From contig JAFIEF010000026.1 in assembly GCA_020832655.1 (NCBI GenBank), forward strand, positions 1-41,872: a DNA stretch of 41,872 nucleotides, in the 5' to 3' direction. The position numbers and the translations under genes are program-made. Under the pieces are notes generated by a model, which was given only the letters and a program-made list of their open reading frames with translations, searched no databases and had not been told where the DNA came from. Every line of letters starts with the position of its first letter. Position 1 is the first letter of the stretch. This stretch comes from Paracoccaceae bacterium. GTDB lineage: Bacteria > Pseudomonadota > Alphaproteobacteria > Rhodobacterales > Rhodobacteraceae. Below are positions 25,187-33,040 of the stretch, piece after piece.

Positions 25187-26131
25187 ATGGCTGCAAGCAT
25201 TGAAAAAGGCGCGAAAAAGCCTGAAAGCTTTCAGGAAATCATCCTGCGGCTGCAATCTTACTGGGCGGCACGGGGCTGCGCGGTGTTGCAGCCCTATGAC
25301 ATGGAAGTGGGCGCGGGCACCTTTCATCCGGCCACGACGCTGCGCGCACTGGGCATGCGGCCCTGGGCTGCGGCATATGTCCAGCCCTCGCGCCGCCCCA
25401 CGGACGGGCGCTATGGCGAAAATCCCAACCGCCTGCAGCATTATTACCAGTATCAGGTGATCATCAAACCCTCGCCGCCCGACCTGCAAGCGCTTTATCT
25501 GGGGTCACTGCGCGCCATCGGCATTGATGACAGCCTGCATGACATCCGTTTTGTCGAGGATGACTGGGAATCCCCCACCCTTGGCGCCTGGGGGCTGGGC
25601 TGGGAGGTCTGGTGCGACGGGATGGAAGTGTCGCAATTCACTTATTTCCAGCAGGTGGGCGGGCATGATTGCCGACCGGTTTCGGGCGAGCTGACCTATG
25701 GTCTGGAACGTCTGGCGATGTATGTGCTGGGCGTCGATCATGTGATGGAGATGCCGTTTAACGCCCCCGACGCGCCGATCCCGCTGACATATGGCGACAT
25801 CTTCCGCCAGACCGAACAGGAATATTCGCGCCACAACTTCCACGCCGCCACGACCGAGATGCTGTTTGACCATTTCAAGGATGCAGAGGCCGAATGCCGG
25901 CGCCTGCTGGACATGCCCGCCGACGACCCTGCCACCGGCATGCGCATCATCATGGCGCATCCCGCCTATGACCAATGCATCAAGGCCAGCCATATCTTCA
26001 ACCTGCTTGATGCGCGCGGCGTGATTTCGGTCACCGAACGTCAGGCCTATATCGGGCGGGTGCGGGCGCTGGCGAAGCTGTGTGCCGACGCCTTTGTGCA
26101 GACAGAGGCCGGTGGCGGGCAGGCGGCCTGA
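25187..26131 (+). CDS. glyQ: Glycyl-tRNA synthetase alpha subunit
   Basis: Catalytic subunit of the bacterial alpha2beta2 glycyl-tRNA synthetase (314 residues). It opens [24 protein letters not shown], then [11 protein letters not shown], with class II motif 2 in [45 protein letters not shown] and the YGLERLAMY motif 3 complete the active site. It overlaps the DUF6446 gene by one base (TGATG), which separates it from glyS, an arrangement seen in Rhodobacterales. A RBS-like AAGG lies upstream of the ATG. Confidence 0.97.
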
Positions 26132-26631
26132 TGGGGCGGCTTCTGGTCATCCTGCTGCTGGGCATGACCCTGTTTGCGGGTGTGGGGGCTTGGTATTTTC
26201 AGGTCCACGCCTTCTATGATGAACTGCCCGCGCAAGACAGCGTGCGGCTGACGCCGATAGGGGCTGCGGCCCCGCAATCCTTCGCTGTCCGCGCGTTTCG
26301 CGGCATCGACAGCGCCAGCTCGCCCATTCGTTACCGGGCCTGCTTCACCATTGACGCCGATCCGGCCCAATTCACCCCGTATGAGCGCGCCACGCCGCTG
26401 AATGCGCCGGGCTGGTTTGACTGTTTCGATGCGGGCACGTTGACCCGCGCGCTGGAAGACGGGCGCGCCCAGGCCGTGCTGGGGGTGTCGAATATCGTCT
26501 ATGGCATTGACCGCGTGGTGGTGCTGTGGGACGGGCGCGGCTATGCGTGGCAGCAGATCAACCCCTGTGGCGAGGCGCATTTTGACGGCGACCCGGTGCC
26601 CCCCGGCTGCCCGCCCCCTCCTGAACGCTAA
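26131..26631 (+). CDS. DUF6446 family membrane-anchored protein
   Basis: A 166-residue protein of unknown function that I associate with the DUF6446 family, found between glyQ and glyS in Rhodobacterales. One N-terminal hydrophobic helix (about 3-22) anchors it or acts as an uncleaved signal; the rest is a soluble, probably periplasmic domain with cysteines in YRACFTID, GWFDCFDAG, INPCGEAH and PPGCPPPP that could form two disulfides. It starts inside the glyQ stop. Its link to glycine-tRNA charging, if any, is unknown. Confidence 0.8.
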   Translation: MGRLLVILLLGMTLFAGVGAWYFQVHAFYDELPAQDSVRLTPIGAAAPQSFAVRAFRGIDSASSPIRYRACFTIDADPAQFTPYERATPLNAPGWFDCFDAGTLTRALEDGRAQAVLGVSNIVYGIDRVVVLWDGRGYAWQQINPCGEAHFDGDPVPPGCPPPPER

Positions 26632-26640
26632 GGAAACGCA

Positions 26641-29046
26641 ATGGCTGACCTTCTGATCGAGTTGTTTTCCGAGGAAATCCCCGCGCGGATGCAGGCGCGC
26701 GCGGCCGGGGATCTGAAAAAACTGATGACCGATGGTCTGGTCGAGGCGGGCCTCACCTATGCCCATGCGCAGGCTTTCGCCACCCCCCGCCGCCTTGCGC
26801 TGGCGGTGCAGGGGCTGTCAGAACACTCGCCCACCACCCGCGAGGAGCGACGCGGGCCGAAAGTCGGCGCGCCGGACAAGGCGATCGAGGGGTTCTTGCG
26901 CTCCACCGGTTTGACGCGCGATGATCTGGAAATCCGCGACGACAAGAAGGGGCAGGTCTATATCGCGCAGATCACCACCCCCGGCCGCGCCGCGCCCGAG
27001 ATCGTGGCCGAAGTGCTGGAGCATACCATCCGCCATTTCCCCTGGCCGAAATCCATGCGCTGGGGGACGGGATCCTTGCGCTGGGTGCGCCCGCTGCATG
27101 CGATCTTGTGCATTCTGTCGGACGGGTCCGGCGCGCAGGTGGTGCCGCTGCAGGTTGACGGGATCGTTGCGGGTGACACCACGCGCGGGCATCGCTTCAT
27201 GGCGCCGGATACGTTTTCTGTAACAAGCTTCGATGATTACGCGGCGAAGCTCAAGCGCGCCAGGGTCATTCTGGACCCCGCCGAGCGTGCCGGGCATATA
27301 TGGAATGATGCGCGCCAGATGGCCTTTGCCCAGGGGTTGGAACTGGTCGAGGATAAGGGCTTGCTGGCAGAGGTCGCGGGGCTGGTCGAATGGCCAGTGG
27401 TGCTGATGGGGCGGATCGAGGACCAGTTTCTGGCCCTGCCGCCCGAAGTGCTGCAAACCAGCATGAAGGAACACCAGAAATTCTTTTCGCTGCGCGACCC
27501 CAAGACCGGGCAGATCACCGGATTTGTCACAGTGGCGAACCGCGAAACCGTGGATGGCGGCAAAACCATTCTGGCCGGGAACCAGAAGGTGTTGGCGGCG
27601 CGGCTGTCGGACGCAAAATTCTTCTGGCAGAATGACTTGCGCGTCGCGGCTGATGCGATGCGCGAATGGAAGGACGGGTTGGCGAGCGTCACCTTCCACA
27701 ACAAGCTGGGCTCGCAGTCCGACCGGGTGGCGCGGATCGAAGCCCTGGCGCGCGAAATCGCGCCGCTGGTGGGCGCGGATGCGGAACTGGCGGAACTGGC
27801 GGCACAGGCTGCACGGGTGGTGAAATCCGATCTGCGCTCGGAAATGGTGGGCGAATTTCCCGAGCTTCAAGGTCTTATGGGCAGCTATTACGCCCGCGCG
27901 GCGGGGCTGCCCGAGGATGTGGCCCGCGCCTGTGTGGAACATTACCAACCGCTGGGGCCATCGGATTCCGTGCCGACTTCGCCAGTGTCGGTGGCGGTGG
28001 CGCTGGCCGACAAGCTGGACACGCTGACCGGCTTCTGGGCGATTGACGAGAAGCCCACTGGCTCGAAAGACCCCTTCGCGCTGCGCCGCGCGGCGTTGGG
28101 GGTTATTCGGTTGGTGTTGGGGAATGGGGCTAAGCTTGATTTGTTTAGCATCTGCCTCTTGTCGGTTTTGCGGTTTCGGCGCGAGTTAGCGGAGAGAGGA
28201 AGGCTCGCCTCGTCACATACGATCAAGGAAAGCAGTTATGCTTACGGGAGAAAGAGACCCGGCAAAAATCTTGCTCTTGTTCCTTTCCGAGGCGAGGGAC
28301 AAAAGTTTGATGAAGTTCGCTTTGCTGAGGCAATTGAGATTGAAGGCGTTTACAAGACCGTCTGGTTTCCAGATGGGAAAACGACGTCTGAGCTTGAGGA
28401 GTTCAGATTTGATCCTCATGCTATTGTTTCAGACCTCCTCAGCTTCTTCCACGACCGCCTCAAGGTCCACCTACGCGACCAGGGCATCCGCCATGACGTG
28501 ATCGACGCCTGCCTCTATACTTCTGGTAGCGCGCCTTCAGGCGCGACGCCCGGCAATGACGACCTCACCCTGCTGGTCAAACGCGCGGAAGCGCTTAATT
28601 CAGTGCTTAGCACAGATGACGGAAGCAACCTTATTCAAGGGTTCAAGCGCGCAAACAAGCTCTGGGTGGATGAAATGAAAAAAGCTGGCTTCAACGACGA
28701 TCCTTCATTCCTGAAGGCGATCAGTGTTCTGGATGAAGCAGAGGCGCAAGATGGGGTTGAATATAGTTTTGGCCCTGATCCCAAATTCTTCGAGGATGAT
28801 ACGGAACACGCGCTATTAGAAGCGCTGGACTCGGCTGACGCTGTGATTACTCCCGCCATCGCATCGGAAGACTTCGCCACTGCCATGCAAGCGATGGCCC
28901 GCCTGCGCGCGCCGATTGATGCGTTTTTCGATGCCGTGCAGATCAATACCGACAACCAGATCCTGCGCCGCAACCGGCTGAACCTGTTGCACCGCATCCG
29001 CGAAACCTGCCTGCAAGTGGCCGATCTGACGCGGCTGGAAGGGTAG
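26641..29046 (+). CDS. glyS: Glycyl-tRNA synthetase beta subunit (mosaic 3' third)
   Basis: tRNA-binding subunit of glycyl-tRNA synthetase, 801 residues against roughly 690-750 in many relatives. The N-terminal two thirds are typical: LLIELFSEEIPARMQ, RGPKVGAPDKAIEGF, FFSLRDPKTGQITGFVTVAN and the SKDPFALRRAALGVIRL motif. From about residue 483 to 743 (28090-28870) the DNA changes sharply: sampled 60-base blocks have 45-53% GC against 75% in a block just upstream, and residues about 495-590 and 675-700 include sequence I cannot align to family members. The reading frame stays open, so the gene is probably functional. Co-transcribed with glyQ and the DUF6446 gene. Confidence 0.93.
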   Translation: MADLLIELFSEEIPARMQARAAGDLKKLMTDGLVEAGLTYAHAQAFATPRRLALAVQGLSEHSPTTREERRGPKVGAPDKAIEGFLRSTGLTRDDLEIRDDKKGQVYIAQITTPGRAAPEIVAEVLEHTIRHFPWPKSMRWGTGSLRWVRPLHAILCILSDGSGAQVVPLQVDGIVAGDTTRGHRFMAPDTFSVTSFDDYAAKLKRARVILDPAERAGHIWNDARQMAFAQGLELVEDKGLLAEVAGLVEWPVVLMGRIEDQFLALPPEVLQTSMKEHQKFFSLRDPKTGQITGFVTVANRETVDGGKTILAGNQKVLAARLSDAKFFWQNDLRVAADAMREWKDGLASVTFHNKLGSQSDRVARIEALAREIAPLVGADAELAELAAQAARVVKSDLRSEMVGEFPELQGLMGSYYARAAGLPEDVARACVEHYQPLGPSDSVPTSPVSVAVALADKLDTLTGFWAIDEKPTGSKDPFALRRAALGVIRLVLGNGAKLDLFSICLLSVLRFRRELAERGRLASSHTIKESSYAYGRKRPGKNLALVPFRGEGQKFDEVRFAEAIEIEGVYKTVWFPDGKTTSELEEFRFDPHAIVSDLLSFFHDRLKVHLRDQGIRHDVIDACLYTSGSAPSGATPGNDDLTLLVKRAEALNSVLSTDDGSNLIQGFKRANKLWVDEMKKAGFNDDPSFLKAISVLDEAEAQDGVEYSFGPDPKFFEDDTEHALLEALDSADAVITPAIASEDFATAMQAMARLRAPIDAFFDAVQINTDNQILRRNRLNLLHRIRETCLQVADLTRLEG

Positions 29047-29209
29047 GGCGCGCGTCGCCAGCCGCGCGATGGCCCAAGCCCGCGCCAGCGGCGGCCTGCG
29101 GCCTTTGCTGCGCGCCTTGGGGTGCCCAAGTGGGGCCGACAGGCCATAACAAAACCTTGAGTCTGACGCGCATCAGCCTATGCTGCGCCGCAGCCAGAAG
29201 GTAGCCCGA

Positions 29210-31753
29210 ATGCCCAAATATCTGAACCTGACCGAATATGCCCAGATCACCGGCTCTGCGCCGATCAAGCGGGGCACGCATGGCTGGCGCGCGAAATGTC
29301 TGCAACGTCTGGTGCGGCTGGACATGCCGGTGCCGCAAACCGTGGCGCTGTCGTTCAATGTGGTGCGTGAAATTGCCACCGGCGCGCAGATGAATTCGCG
29401 CAATCTGCTGGCGCATTTCCCGGCGGGCACACTGGTGTCTGTCCGCCCCTCGGCCGAGCACCCGGAATGGGGCGGGCCGGCGACGATCTTGAATATCGGC
29501 ATGAATGACGAAACCCATGCGCAGATCGCCGCAACCTATGGCGAGGCGGTGGCCACGGCGATGTATCTGCGTTTTGTGCAATCCTATGCCGAACATGTCG
29601 CGCATCTGGATGCCGATCTGTTCGATAGCGCGGCGCTTGGTCCTGATGCGCTGAAATCGGCGCTGCGGCTATATGAAGACGAGATGGAGGAACCCTTTCC
29701 CCAGACCGCCGCGCAGCAGTTGGCCGATGTGCTGCGCTCTATGGCGCGGGCGTGGGAAGGCACCTCTGCGCGGCTCTTGCGGCAGGCCAAGGGTGCGCCG
29801 CTTGATGCCGGGCTGGGGCTGGTGGTGCAGGCAATGGCGGGCGGCAGGGGCAAGGGGATCAGCGGCGCGGGGTTGATCCGCTTCATCGACAATGAAACCG
29901 GCGCGCCGCAAGTGACCGGGCGCTTCAAATCGCTGGGTCAGGATGGGGCAGAGGCGCTGAAGGCGGGCAAGGATGTGCTGTATCTGACCCGCGACAAGCG
30001 CGGCCCCTCGCTGGAAGATTGCTGCCCCGAGGCGTTTGCAGAACTGCTGGAACATGGCCGCAATGCCCGCAGGCGCCTGCGCGAGGAGATGGAGATCGAA
30101 TTCACCCTTGATGATGGCAAGCTGTGGGTGCTGGATGCGGTGACAGTGCCGCGCTCGGCGCGTGCGGCGGTGCGCGTTGTGGTCGATCTGGCCAATGACG
30201 ACATCATCCTGCGTGACGAAGCGTTGATGCGCATCCCCGCCAAGGCATTGGGCGAAATGCTGCACCGGCAGGTTGATCCGCGCGCCCGCCCCGAGGCACT
30301 GGCGCGCGGCATTGCCGCCAGCCCCGGCGCAGCCAGCGGGCGGATCGTGTTCAGCTCCAGCGCCGCGCAGGCCAGCGCCGCGCGCGAGGAACCCTGCATT
30401 CTGGTGCGGCGCGAAACCACGCCAGAGGATATTCGCGGCATGCATGTCGCCAGCGCCGTGTTGACCGAACGCGGCGGGATGACCAGCCATGCGGCCGTGA
30501 TCGGGCGCGGGCTGGGTGTGCCTTGCGTGGTCGGTGTGTCGGACATGCAGATCGATCTGCGCCGCAAGACGCTGAATGCCGGTGGACGCAGCTTGCACGA
30601 AGGCGATGTCCTGACAGTGGATGGCACCAACGGGCAGGTGCTGATCGGCGAGGTGCCGATGCTGGAACCCGCGCTGGATGACCGCTTCCAGACGCTGCTG
30701 GACTGGGCCGATGCGCGGCGCGACATCGATATCCGCGCCAATGCCGACACCCCCGCCGATGCACGAATTGCGCGCGATTTCAAAGCGCAGGGGATCGGAC
30801 TGTGCCGCACCGAGCACATGTTTTTCGAGGATGACCGCCTGACGCTGATGCGCGAGATGATCTTTGCCGATAGCAGCGAGGACCGGTCGGATGCGCTGGA
30901 GCGGCTATTACCGATGCAGCGCGCCGATTTTATCGAATTGTTTGACATCATGCAGGGCCAGCCGGTCTGTATCCGCCTGTTCGACCCGCCTTTGCATGAA
31001 TTCCTGCCCCATACCAAGGATGGTCTGCGCTTTCTGGCCGATGCGCTGGACAAGCCCTTGTCGGAAATCACCCGCCGGGCCGAGGCGCTGGCCGAATTCA
31101 ACCCGATGCTGGGGATGCGCGGGGTGCGGCTGGGGGTCACGATCCCTGAAATCTATGAAATGCAGGTCCGCGCGATTTTCGAGGCCACGATCGAAACCGC
31201 GCGCTGCGGCGCCGAAGTCATTCCTGAAATCATGATCCCGCTTGTGTCGGCCATGCGCGAGGTCGAACTTGTCAAGGCGCGCATTGATGCTGCTGCTGCA
31301 AAAGTGCGGTCGCGCACGGGGGCGGATTTCCATTACCGTTTGGGGGTGATGGTCGAAACCCCGCGCGCGGCGCTGCGCGCGGGCGATATCGCGCTGCATG
31401 CCGCCTTCCTGTCCTTTGGCACCAATGACTTGACACAGATGACCTATGGCCTGTCGCGCGATGATGCCGGACGTTTCATGTCCGACTATGTCCGACAGGA
31501 AGTGTTTCCCGAAGACCCGTTCCATACGCTGGATCTGGACGGCGTGGGCGAATTGCTGCGGTTCGGGGCCGAACGCGGGCGCGCGGCGCGCCCCGATCTG
31601 ACCTTGTCAATCTGCGGCGAACATGGCGGCAATCCCGAATCCATCCGCTTCTGCCGCACGCTGAATTTCGACTATGTATCGTGCTCGCCCTTCCGCGTGC
31701 CGGTGGCCCGACTGGCTGCGGCACAGCTTGCCATCAGCGATGCGTTGGACTGA
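29210..31753 (+). CDS. PPDK-like protein with degenerate ATP-grasp half
   Basis: An 847-residue homologue of pyruvate, phosphate dikinase (usually about 870-890). The swivelling phospho-His domain is intact (ERGGMTSHAAVIGRG, His427), as is the C-terminal PEP/pyruvate barrel: Arg533 in LCRTEHMF, Arg589 in CIRLFDPPLHEFLP, Glu716 in MVETPRA, Asn739-Asp740 in FGTNDLTQMT, and Cys802 in ICGEHGGNPES. The N-terminal ATP-binding half is eroded: GGKGANL becomes GTHGWRA, the usual SMPGMMDT loop becomes EHPEWGGPAT, and LWMLQTR becomes LWVLDAV. It lies 163 bases after glyS. AGAAGG precedes the ATG at 29210. Whether it is a true dikinase is doubtful. Confidence 0.85.
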   Translation: MPKYLNLTEYAQITGSAPIKRGTHGWRAKCLQRLVRLDMPVPQTVALSFNVVREIATGAQMNSRNLLAHFPAGTLVSVRPSAEHPEWGGPATILNIGMNDETHAQIAATYGEAVATAMYLRFVQSYAEHVAHLDADLFDSAALGPDALKSALRLYEDEMEEPFPQTAAQQLADVLRSMARAWEGTSARLLRQAKGAPLDAGLGLVVQAMAGGRGKGISGAGLIRFIDNETGAPQVTGRFKSLGQDGAEALKAGKDVLYLTRDKRGPSLEDCCPEAFAELLEHGRNARRRLREEMEIEFTLDDGKLWVLDAVTVPRSARAAVRVVVDLANDDIILRDEALMRIPAKALGEMLHRQVDPRARPEALARGIAASPGAASGRIVFSSSAAQASAAREEPCILVRRETTPEDIRGMHVASAVLTERGGMTSHAAVIGRGLGVPCVVGVSDMQIDLRRKTLNAGGRSLHEGDVLTVDGTNGQVLIGEVPMLEPALDDRFQTLLDWADARRDIDIRANADTPADARIARDFKAQGIGLCRTEHMFFEDDRLTLMREMIFADSSEDRSDALERLLPMQRADFIELFDIMQGQPVCIRLFDPPLHEFLPHTKDGLRFLADALDKPLSEITRRAEALAEFNPMLGMRGVRLGVTIPEIYEMQVRAIFEATIETARCGAEVIPEIMIPLVSAMREVELVKARIDAAAAKVRSRTGADFHYRLGVMVETPRAALRAGDIALHAAFLSFGTNDLTQMTYGLSRDDAGRFMSDYVRQEVFPEDPFHTLDLDGVGELLRFGAERGRAARPDLTLSICGEHGGNPESIRFCRTLNFDYVSCSPFRVPVARLAAAQLAISDALD

Positions 31754-31963: not shown

Positions 31964-33040
31964 ATGGGTGTTGACTTGAAATCTGCTGTCAAACGACGTT
32001 GCGGCCTTCAGGGTGCGCGGGGCCATGATGCGGGGGCGCATCCTGCCCAAACGCCCGTCAGGCGCGGCGCGGTTGTGGCCGCCGTCTGGGCGGCTTCGCT
32101 GCTTGTGGCCTTGCCCAGCATGGGGTCACGGGTTGTCGATGGTACGATTAGCCATGACATGCACAAACATCTGACCGAGGCACCGCTGAACGAAGCAAAC
32201 CCGCTTTGGCGCAATGCGCTGACCCCGGCCAGGGGCGCGGATATCGACATGCCGCAGCCCCCCACCATTGCGGCTGCGCGTCTGAGCAGGGATGTCTCGG
32301 GGCTGTTTATGGGGCAGGGGCGTTCGGTGGATCTGTCGCAATTGACACGGATTGCGCGTGTGACTGCCTCGCCGCTTGGCGCTGACGCGTCGAGCTCTGT
32401 CACCTTGCCCCCGCAACTGCGTGAACAGGACATGGTTGCCCCGACCAGCCGTGACGATGTGTTCCTGCCTGCCAGCGGGGCGGTTGCCGCGCCGGTCGCA
32501 CCGGATGCGATGCTGGTGTTGCAAGGGGCCGCAAATGAGTACGCCCCGGTGGTGTCGGCCCGTCCGGCGCTGCGCCCGGCAGGGTTGGAGCGTCGGGTGG
32601 TGCAGTATACGAATCGCTGGCTGAGGCAGGTCGAACTGCGCGAACTGACCGAGCAGGAGCGTTGCCTTGCAACCGCGATCTACCATGAAGCGCGCGGTGA
32701 AAGCCTGAAGGGCCAGTTCGCCGTTGCCGAGGTTATCCTCAACCGGGTGGATTCGCGCCAGTTCCCGAACTCCATCTGCGGGGTTGTCTATCAGGGTGTG
32801 CGCGAAGGGAGGTTGGGTGGTTGCCAGTTCAGCTTTGCCTGCGACGGCCGGTCCGAGGCGATGCCGAACCGCACTGCCGCAAATCGTGCGCGCCGCATTG
32901 CGCAAGTCATCAGCGACGGGGCGCATCGCGGCCTGACACGCGGGGCATTGTATTTTCATACCACCGCAGTCAATCCGAACTGGGCCAACCGCTTCACCCG
33001 GACAACCCAGATTGGCGCGCATCTGTTCTATCGCGGGTAG
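31964..33040 (+). CDS. SleB-type cell wall hydrolase
   Basis: A 358-residue envelope protein. Residues about 35-51 form a hydrophobic membrane anchor or signal (VVAAVWAASLLVALPSM); a long low-complexity region follows; the C-terminal Hydrolase_2 (SleB) domain spans about 225-355. It contains the catalytic Glu242 in AIYHEARGES, then AVAEVILNRV, PNSICGVVYQ and QFSFACDG, the last with conserved aromatic and Cys positions. Relatives cleave peptidoglycan. The ribosome site is weak. The protein could act alongside the two MltB homologues in wall turnover. Confidence 0.9.
   Translation: MGVDLKSAVKRRCGLQGARGHDAGAHPAQTPVRRGAVVAAVWAASLLVALPSMGSRVVDGTISHDMHKHLTEAPLNEANPLWRNALTPARGADIDMPQPPTIAAARLSRDVSGLFMGQGRSVDLSQLTRIARVTASPLGADASSSVTLPPQLREQDMVAPTSRDDVFLPASGAVAAPVAPDAMLVLQGAANEYAPVVSARPALRPAGLERRVVQYTNRWLRQVELRELTEQERCLATAIYHEARGESLKGQFAVAEVILNRVDSRQFPNSICGVVYQGVREGRLGGCQFSFACDGRSEAMPNRTAANRARRIAQVISDGAHRGLTRGALYFHTTAVNPNWANRFTRTTQIGAHLFYRG

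Follow-up and report, generated by a model that had tools for sequence, protein, structure and literature searches.

A Rhodobacteraceae homologue of pyruvate phosphate dikinase with a conserved PEP half and a probably re-specified ATP half

Introduction

Pyruvate phosphate dikinase (PPDK, EC 2.7.9.1), represented by structures from Clostridium symbiosum, maize and Flaveria, is the described enzyme that comes closest to the protein presented here. Both have the same domain order, phospho-His domain and PEP site, both belong to a glyQ-glyS-ppdK locus, and a structure model predicts a shared fold. Nevertheless, Lys22, Gln335, Arg337, the MPGMM loop, the adenine hinge, Arg219 and Glu271 of PPDK are all replaced in the present protein, and the PF03618 regulator is absent. 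In Flaveria PPDK, Arg95 and Glu324, probably the equivalents of Arg92 and Glu323, were reported to be directly involved in ATP binding (PMC5507339), and in the C. symbiosum enzyme the triple mutant R219E/E271R/S262D (2R82) was designed to reach a second conformational state (PMC5371819). The PF03618 family (DUF299) regulates PPDK or PpsA through phosphorylation (PMC2817694), and a review places a DUF299 homologue in all bacteria with PPDK (PMC8100219).

PEP synthase, rifampin phosphotransferase and the two-component HpeHI share with this protein a swivelling His domain that moves between two sites. HpeH transfers phosphate on its own, in the absence of its ATP part (PMC12167813). PEP synthase and the small-molecule dikinases have kept the ATP-grasp and changed the acceptor side, whereas the protein described here has its PEP side preserved and its ATP side changed. 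PTS enzyme I and PtsP carry homologous His and PEP domains, and PEP as phosphate source is the mode that we propose below. However, the N-domain of our protein is PPDK-derived and gives no enzyme I N-terminal match, and a PtsP-like protein is encoded separately in the same genome. In the open-licence literature searched, as far as its accessible parts go, no report of a remodelled ATP site of this kind was met, which is not proof of its being unpublished.

Sequence sets and alignments

The window is a 41,872-nucleotide stretch of a Paracoccaceae bacterium (contig JAFIEF010000026.1). Altogether, 154 loci were aligned; rows at least 80% identical to a kept row or shorter than 700 aa were dropped, which left 90, and omission of L154 gave 89 rows in each of the alignments A1 and A2. 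In A1, 67 rows form the core, the window protein among them; 8 (L117-L124) are intermediates and 14 are canonical (L116 and 13 class-level ones). K22, R337, T453 and R219/E271/S262 are named in PDB titles, and R219, E271, S262 and R337 could be placed on solved chains. For the omega ratio, 23 non-overlapping pairs at 86-99.9% identity were taken from 258 candidates; in the per-domain estimates, pairs with dS outside 0.05-2.0 were dropped. Sequences were read for the fetched loci alone.

Gene and domain layout

The remodelled PPDK homologue is encoded at 29210..31753 (+ strand) and counts 847 aa. An upstream ATG at 29180 offers an alternative form of 857 aa, and the frame 29180/29210-31753 (+) is free of internal stops; residue numbers refer to the 847-aa form that starts at 29210. 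The N-domain (residues 1-345; 29210..30244, +) adopts a PPDK-like fold in the model, with a nucleotide site that appears re-specified. It is followed by the phospho-His swivelling domain (residues 369-490; 30314..30679, +; PF00391, E=1.2e-25) and by the PEP/pyruvate-binding domain (residues 500-846; 30707..31747, +; PF02896, E=2.2e-73).

The Pfam model PPDK_N gave zero matches at E<=1 in the window protein and scored 197.8 and 149.2 bits on two canonical controls. With the PPDK equivalog TIGR01828 the window protein reached 838.8 bits, below the cut-off of 843.45. Scores for PEP synthase (TIGR01418, 142.3 bits against an equivalog cut-off of 739.75) and for PTS enzyme I (TIGR01417, an equivalog_domain model, 113.9 bits against 341.7) stayed far lower, and the Pfam matches cover His and PEP parts only, with no enzyme I N-terminal domain. 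The nearest solved chains are PPDKs, the alignment beginning at residue 84 of the 857-aa form. The protein is a PPDK by descent; from the ATP-site features tested, it should not be filed as PPDK by function before an assay. This gene, usually named pyruvate phosphate dikinase in Rhodobacteraceae, probably does not encode the textbook enzyme.

The PEP and phospho-histidine half

The catalytic histidine lies in T425-S426-H427 (30482-30490, +) within the phospho-His domain. H427 and, in the PEP domain, R533, R589, E716, N739, D740 and C802 are all present in the window protein and invariant in 89/89 aligned rows, among which the 14 canonical PPDKs are counted. The PEP/pyruvate-site residues and the catalytic His expected of a PPDK are therefore in place, and the original prediction had rightly described the PEP-domain residues, His427 and Cys802 as intact. 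The same residues were found in six divergent family rows (L188, L189 and L191-L194, L191 being a fragment) with widely different ATP sites; L192 departs beside them, with DLPVH for DPPLH and SSH for TSH.

The ATP site

We take Arg92, Asp321, Glu323 and Gln335 to be ATP-site positions of canonical PPDK, Lys22 to be the lysine of its GGK motif and EDVVAGIRTP to be its adenine hinge. In the window protein, canonical LGGKGANLAEM is replaced by HGWRAKCLQRL (residues 24-34; 29279..29311, +), Arg27 taking the place of Lys22 (R in 67/67 core rows, K in 14/14 canonical ones). The MPGMM loop has given way to WGGP (residues 87-90; 29468..29479, +), with W87 in 67/67, G89 in 66/67 and P90 in 67/67 core rows. 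In the same way, LDAV (residues 308-311; 30131..30142, +) stands for LQTR, so that Gln335 becomes Asp309 and Arg337 becomes Val311; D309 is found in 67/67 core rows, and position 311 is V in 56, I in 6, L in 3, T in 1 and A in 1, with R in 0/67. The former adenine hinge (residues 247-256; 29948..29977, +) is lost in core members: R254 occurs in 4/67 core rows, 8/8 intermediates and 14/14 canonical rows, and P256 in 0/67, 8/8 and 14/14, respectively. Arg79 (29444..29446, +), equivalent to Arg92, is kept in 89/89 rows and Glu297 (30098..30100, +), equivalent to Glu323, in 66/67 core rows; these two alone remain out of five residues of the canonical ATP/Pi site. Among the divergent relatives, the Glu323 equivalent is lost in five of six and the Arg92 equivalent in L193.

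The original prediction had spoken of an eroded ATP site in which three motifs were replaced. The replacement of all three was borne out, and the loss of the SMPGMMDT loop, which reads HPEWGGPAT here, and the change of LWMLQTR to LWVLDAV are as had been claimed. The pairing of GGKGANL with GTHGWRA was out of register, since LGGKGAN pairs with HGWRAKC, and the Lys22 counterpart is Arg27 and not Thr or His. The site is indeed non-canonical; mere erosion does not describe it, since the new residues are equally fixed. It had also been asked whether the substitutions are conserved across relatives, and they are so family-wide, in 67/67 core rows at key sites.

Thirty-nine positions are of type II: the canonical rows have one residue fixed there (13 or 14 of 14), and the core has a different one that is nearly fixed (at least 60/67). 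Residues 1-345 hold 31 of them (naive hypergeometric p=5e-7, the sites not being independent). This argues for an ATP site that was rebuilt, beyond erosion, and on these comparisons the change exceeds what chance or decay would produce. The median omega was 0.042 over the 23 pairs; by domain it was 0.057 for the N-domain (22 pairs), 0.062 for the His domain (21) and 0.035 for the PEP domain (23), with no close canonical pairs alongside. The N-domain is thus under purifying selection, to a degree like that of the His domain.

Docking residues and structure model

Two of the three positions altered in the engineered mutant 2R82 are naturally changed here. Ser186 (29765..29767, +) corresponds to Arg219 and is S or T in 67/67 core rows, R in 14/14 canonical ones. 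Arg238 (29921..29923, +) corresponds to Glu271 and is R in 67/67 core rows and 8/8 intermediates, E in 14/14 canonical rows. The second change is identical to E271R; by contrast, Ser or Thr is found at 219 instead of Glu, the S262 position is variable, and many further changes are present. These natural substitutions at 219 and 271 suggest that the His domain may now dock differently on the N-domain.

An AF2 model with a mean pLDDT of 90.6 had PPDKs as its best PDB matches, with Foldseek TM values of 0.87 to 5jvl_C, 0.83 to 2r82 and 0.70 to 1dik. Its PEP-facing pose was considered as support for altered docking and was dropped, because a canonical control, L146, takes the same pose when modelled from the 89 rows used for the window protein (5jvl_A 0.91, 2r82 0.83, 1dik 0.77).

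A ladder of partial forms

In a tree built from the His and PEP domains only, the order runs from class-level canonical rows through L116, L123, L121 and L117 to five further partial forms (L118-L120, L122, L124) and then to the 67 core rows. The core clade is supported at 100/98 and the forks after L116, L123 and L121 at 99/74, 99/76 and 99/85; bootstrap is unsettled in this tree and L116 is a long branch. The N-domain loses its canonical residues in the same order. L116, from genome G113, has a canonical ATP site. L123 keeps Lys22 and Arg337, with Gln335 and the loop gone, and L121 and L117 keep Lys22 and carry Asp at 335. The five partial forms have Arg at 22, together with WGGP in four and WGGV in L124, and loss of the hinge is the step reached in core rows.

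A second, smaller tree included the divergent rows, whose places are weakly supported. There L193, itself without a canonical ATP site, branches off outside canonical L116 (15.9/71), against a perfectly clean ladder, so that more than one route of ATP-site loss is possible. As part of the explanation that we find probable as a whole, the window gene would be a vertical orthologue of alphaproteobacterial PPDK that was converted in place.

Locus and neighbours

Flanking genes were named by eye. The order glyQ-glyS-ppdK is formed by glyQ (25187-26131), the ancestral upstream neighbour glyS (26641..29046, +), which adjoins canonical and remodelled genes alike, and the present gene; a cell-wall-hydrolase-like gene (31964..33040, +) follows downstream. 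The gene had been supposed to hold a conserved place after glyS, and this is widely so: glyS adjoins in 71/80 loci of one set (8 not, 1 too short), in 30/30 of a further family set and in 11/14 class-level loci with the canonical gene. It holds less well in the window's own genus, where glyS was adjacent in 13/30 loci only and not adjacent in 12, the flank being too short in the other 5. Six of these 12 were viewed with wider flanks; glyS was adjacent in none and the downstream neighbour was kept in all 6.

A functional link to glyS was rejected, the link being broken in part of the own genus. The place is common to canonical PPDK loci, so it is ancestral with no special tie and gives no functional hint. 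The flanks were checked for ancestral neighbours; these alone were seen, and no partner gene was found beside the locus.

Distribution

A TIGR01828 match below 1e-100 was present in 236/248 family genomes (247 genera). The 12/248 family genomes without such a match include several incomplete ones, and in a few the match is absent or the copy very divergent. The cut-off was exceeded in 49/248 family genomes, which makes it indecisive, and all 8 intermediates pass it without a canonical ATP site, so the score is no test of that site.

When the 248 genomes were queried with a canonical N-domain, a full-length canonical PPDK was found, among the matches listed, in G113 alone (326 bits) and not in the other 247/248, some of which are incomplete. 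The eight intermediates scored 104.5-163.3 bits and the other matches listed at most 103. In G273, G183 and G121, separate proteins of 591-654 aa carry canonical ATP-grasp and TSHAA motifs and no GTNDL motif. Conversely, a core N-domain profile run on a class sample (n=385) gave 561-596 bits in 5 family genomes versus 196 for the best of 380 outsiders; the five best-scoring outsiders were canonical. The window's own genome encodes a PpsA (1095.6 bits), a 1033-aa PPDK_N frame and the PtsP-like protein; a separate canonical ppdK, for which the original prediction had advised looking, was not found there.

The PF03618 regulator

PF03618 gave no match in the window's own genome, which thus lacks a companion expected of PPDK, although not a strict one. 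It was found in 9/248 family genomes versus 251/380 non-family genomes of the class sample, and in 0/5 family genomes of that sample. None of the nine is of core grade: they are the canonical G113, the genomes of seven intermediates (G060, G063, G074, G116, G133, G160 and G269, with G142 lacking it) and G221, whose non-core fragment keeps GQRSP, which resembles the hinge, and groups weakly with intermediates. The family-wide absence probably reflects one loss on one branch; Fisher tests of the contrast leave this single origin out of account and treat genomes with unread sequences as core. Yet PF03618 was also without a match in 3/14 canonical class-level genomes (G037, G038 and G046; 81, 97 and 77% complete), so that the "all" of the review fails here, and in five family genomes of non-core grade (G142, G149, G152, G231 and G252). 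The regulator argument is for these reasons weaker than it looks. Though the regulator is gone, Thr persists at its target position beside the His, in 30/30, 79/80 and 28/29 rows of three sets.

Published physiology

In 13C experiments, no PEP was formed from pyruvate in D. shibae and P. gallaeciensis despite an annotated ppdK (PMC2761930). These cells grew on glucose, where a pyruvate-to-PEP flux is not expected. R. denitrificans showed a weak pyruvate-to-PEP flux and low RD1_1948 expression (PMC2749216). In the D. shibae model iDsh827, the PPDK reaction converts PEP into pyruvate under all states, and a pyruvate-to-PEP flux is unneeded (PMC3789786). SPO1359 of Ruegeria pomeroyi is annotated ppdK (PMC4334477). 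The Ruegeria and Leisingera rows in A1 are core; the 13C results would bear on the remodelled site if the orthologues of those three species are of core type.

Proposed function

The reading that we consider probable is that the protein retains the PEP/His half-reaction and has given up the ATP/Pi half, and that the rebuilt N-domain meets a new partner. Its parts do not stand equally firm. Loss of ATP turnover is very likely and retention of PEP/His chemistry likely; that the N-domain serves a new acceptor or partner has about an even chance. In such a cycle, His427 would be charged by PEP in the PEP domain (PEP + His427 <-> pyruvate + His~P), the conserved residues suggesting as much, and the swivelling domain would then turn to the rebuilt N-domain, where it would no longer find ATP/Pi. 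Finally, and this is the weakest step, the phosphate would be passed on, or a signal given, to a partner at the N-domain. The protein would act as a PEP-charged phosphotransferase or a PEP:pyruvate sensor, enzyme I-like in manner and energy source and not a member of that group. The acceptor that we favour is either an anionic group other than a nucleotide or else a partner protein, since the adenine hinge is gone and R79, E297, R27 and D309 are fixed. Some use of a nucleotide or of polyphosphate could still occur, because the Arg92 and Glu323 equivalents are kept and the changes of K to R and Q to D are mild. The original prediction of a phospho-carrier or regulator served by PEP only, or by an unusual donor, agrees with these findings.

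An unlikely alternative is a protein that binds PEP or pyruvate, may phosphorylate its own His and signals the state of PEP to a partner, without passing phosphate on. Strong conservation without the ATP half would fit such a regulator, and in B. subtilis the PEP-utiliser domain of PykA regulates replication apart from catalysis (PMC10427196). However, even the most divergent members read retain the catalytic PEP/His set together with Cys802, and this suggests a chemistry that is in use.

Less probable again is a dikinase with an unusual site, in which R79, E297, R27 and D309 would form a phosphate or metal site and PEP would be made or used with ATP bound otherwise, or with PPi or polyphosphate. 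The PPDK-like N-domain fold of the model and the retention of these four residues (R79 in 89/89 rows, E297 in 66/67, R27 and D309 in 67/67) speak for it; the loss of R337 in 67/67 rows and of the adenine hinge, the changes at Glu271 and Arg219, the absence of PF03618 from the own genome and the nil or weak published pyruvate-to-PEP flux speak against it. That an ordinary PPDK with a merely diverged N-domain is rightly named in databases is very improbable: the TIGR01828 scores do lie around the cut-off, but intermediates pass it without a canonical site and most N-domain catalytic residues are now other fixed residues. A decaying relic under relaxed selection, to which the lost ATP motifs and the few family genomes with no match or a very divergent copy might point, is the least probable of all in view of the low omega and of the near-universal TIGR01828 match in the family.

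For the preferred PEP-charged phosphotransferase, a wider reading may tentatively be put forward, at somewhat less than even chances: a new class of PEP-driven phosphotransferase, in which the ATP domain of PPDK became, step by step and in place, a site that receives a partner protein or an acceptor other than a nucleotide, and which persists as a Rhodobacteraceae core gene under the PPDK name.

Biological meaning

Roseobacters and related bacteria are abundant in the sea, and a PPDK reaction is part of the metabolic work done on them; for R. denitrificans, CO2 assimilation by way of PPDK has been proposed (cited in PMC2761930). Should the protein be unable to use ATP, the PPDK reactions of roseobacter models and this route would need another look. 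By these searches, about four in five of the 248 family genomes would lack both a full-length canonical PPDK, found in 1, and a PEP synthase scoring above the cut-off, found in 45 with the window's included. Moreover, the partial forms alive in the family can be read as a series: one half of a swivelling two-site enzyme was exchanged, and the other stayed fixed.

Remodelled PPDK homologues and their loci

The cut-off of the NCBIfam PPDK equivalog model TIGR01828 (843.45 bits) falls within the score range of the remodelled forms, in which the PEP and phospho-His residues are kept but the N-terminal ATP site is rebuilt; this overlap was noticed on protein rows L116-L145. The cut-off was passed by 49 of the 248 family genomes, and a query with the canonical N-domain found this domain at full length in one of the 248, among the matches listed.

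A small ORF lies between glyQ and glyS in the window (26080-26631). Its homologues adjoin glyS in family loci, and no match at E<=1e-8 was found in the 14 class-level canonical loci.

One remodelled PPDK (L101) is carried by record CP059262.1, titled 'Exiguobacterium profundum'. It nests among Rhodobacter-type rows in the tree of the His and PEP domains, and the record looks mislabelled.

Divergent and short proteins

Very divergent copies (41% identity) were observed in two genomes of 2.1-2.5 Mb, G149 (L192) and G231 (L194). Both retain the PEP/His residues and have an ATP site altered differently from that of the core rows.

In the window's own genome, a 1033-aa frame (L005; contig C33, 62286-66170) has a strong PPDK_N match (329.4 bits) and no PEP-utilizers_C match in the profile search; it is possibly a small-molecule dikinase.

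Finally, proteins of 591-654 aa from G273 (L167), G183 (L171) and G121 (L173) contain the canonical PPDK ATP-grasp motifs and the TSHAA phospho-His motif, and the GTNDL motif of the PEP domain was absent from the three sequences as read. Each genome also carries a remodelled-type match. These proteins are perhaps short or two-part dikinases.
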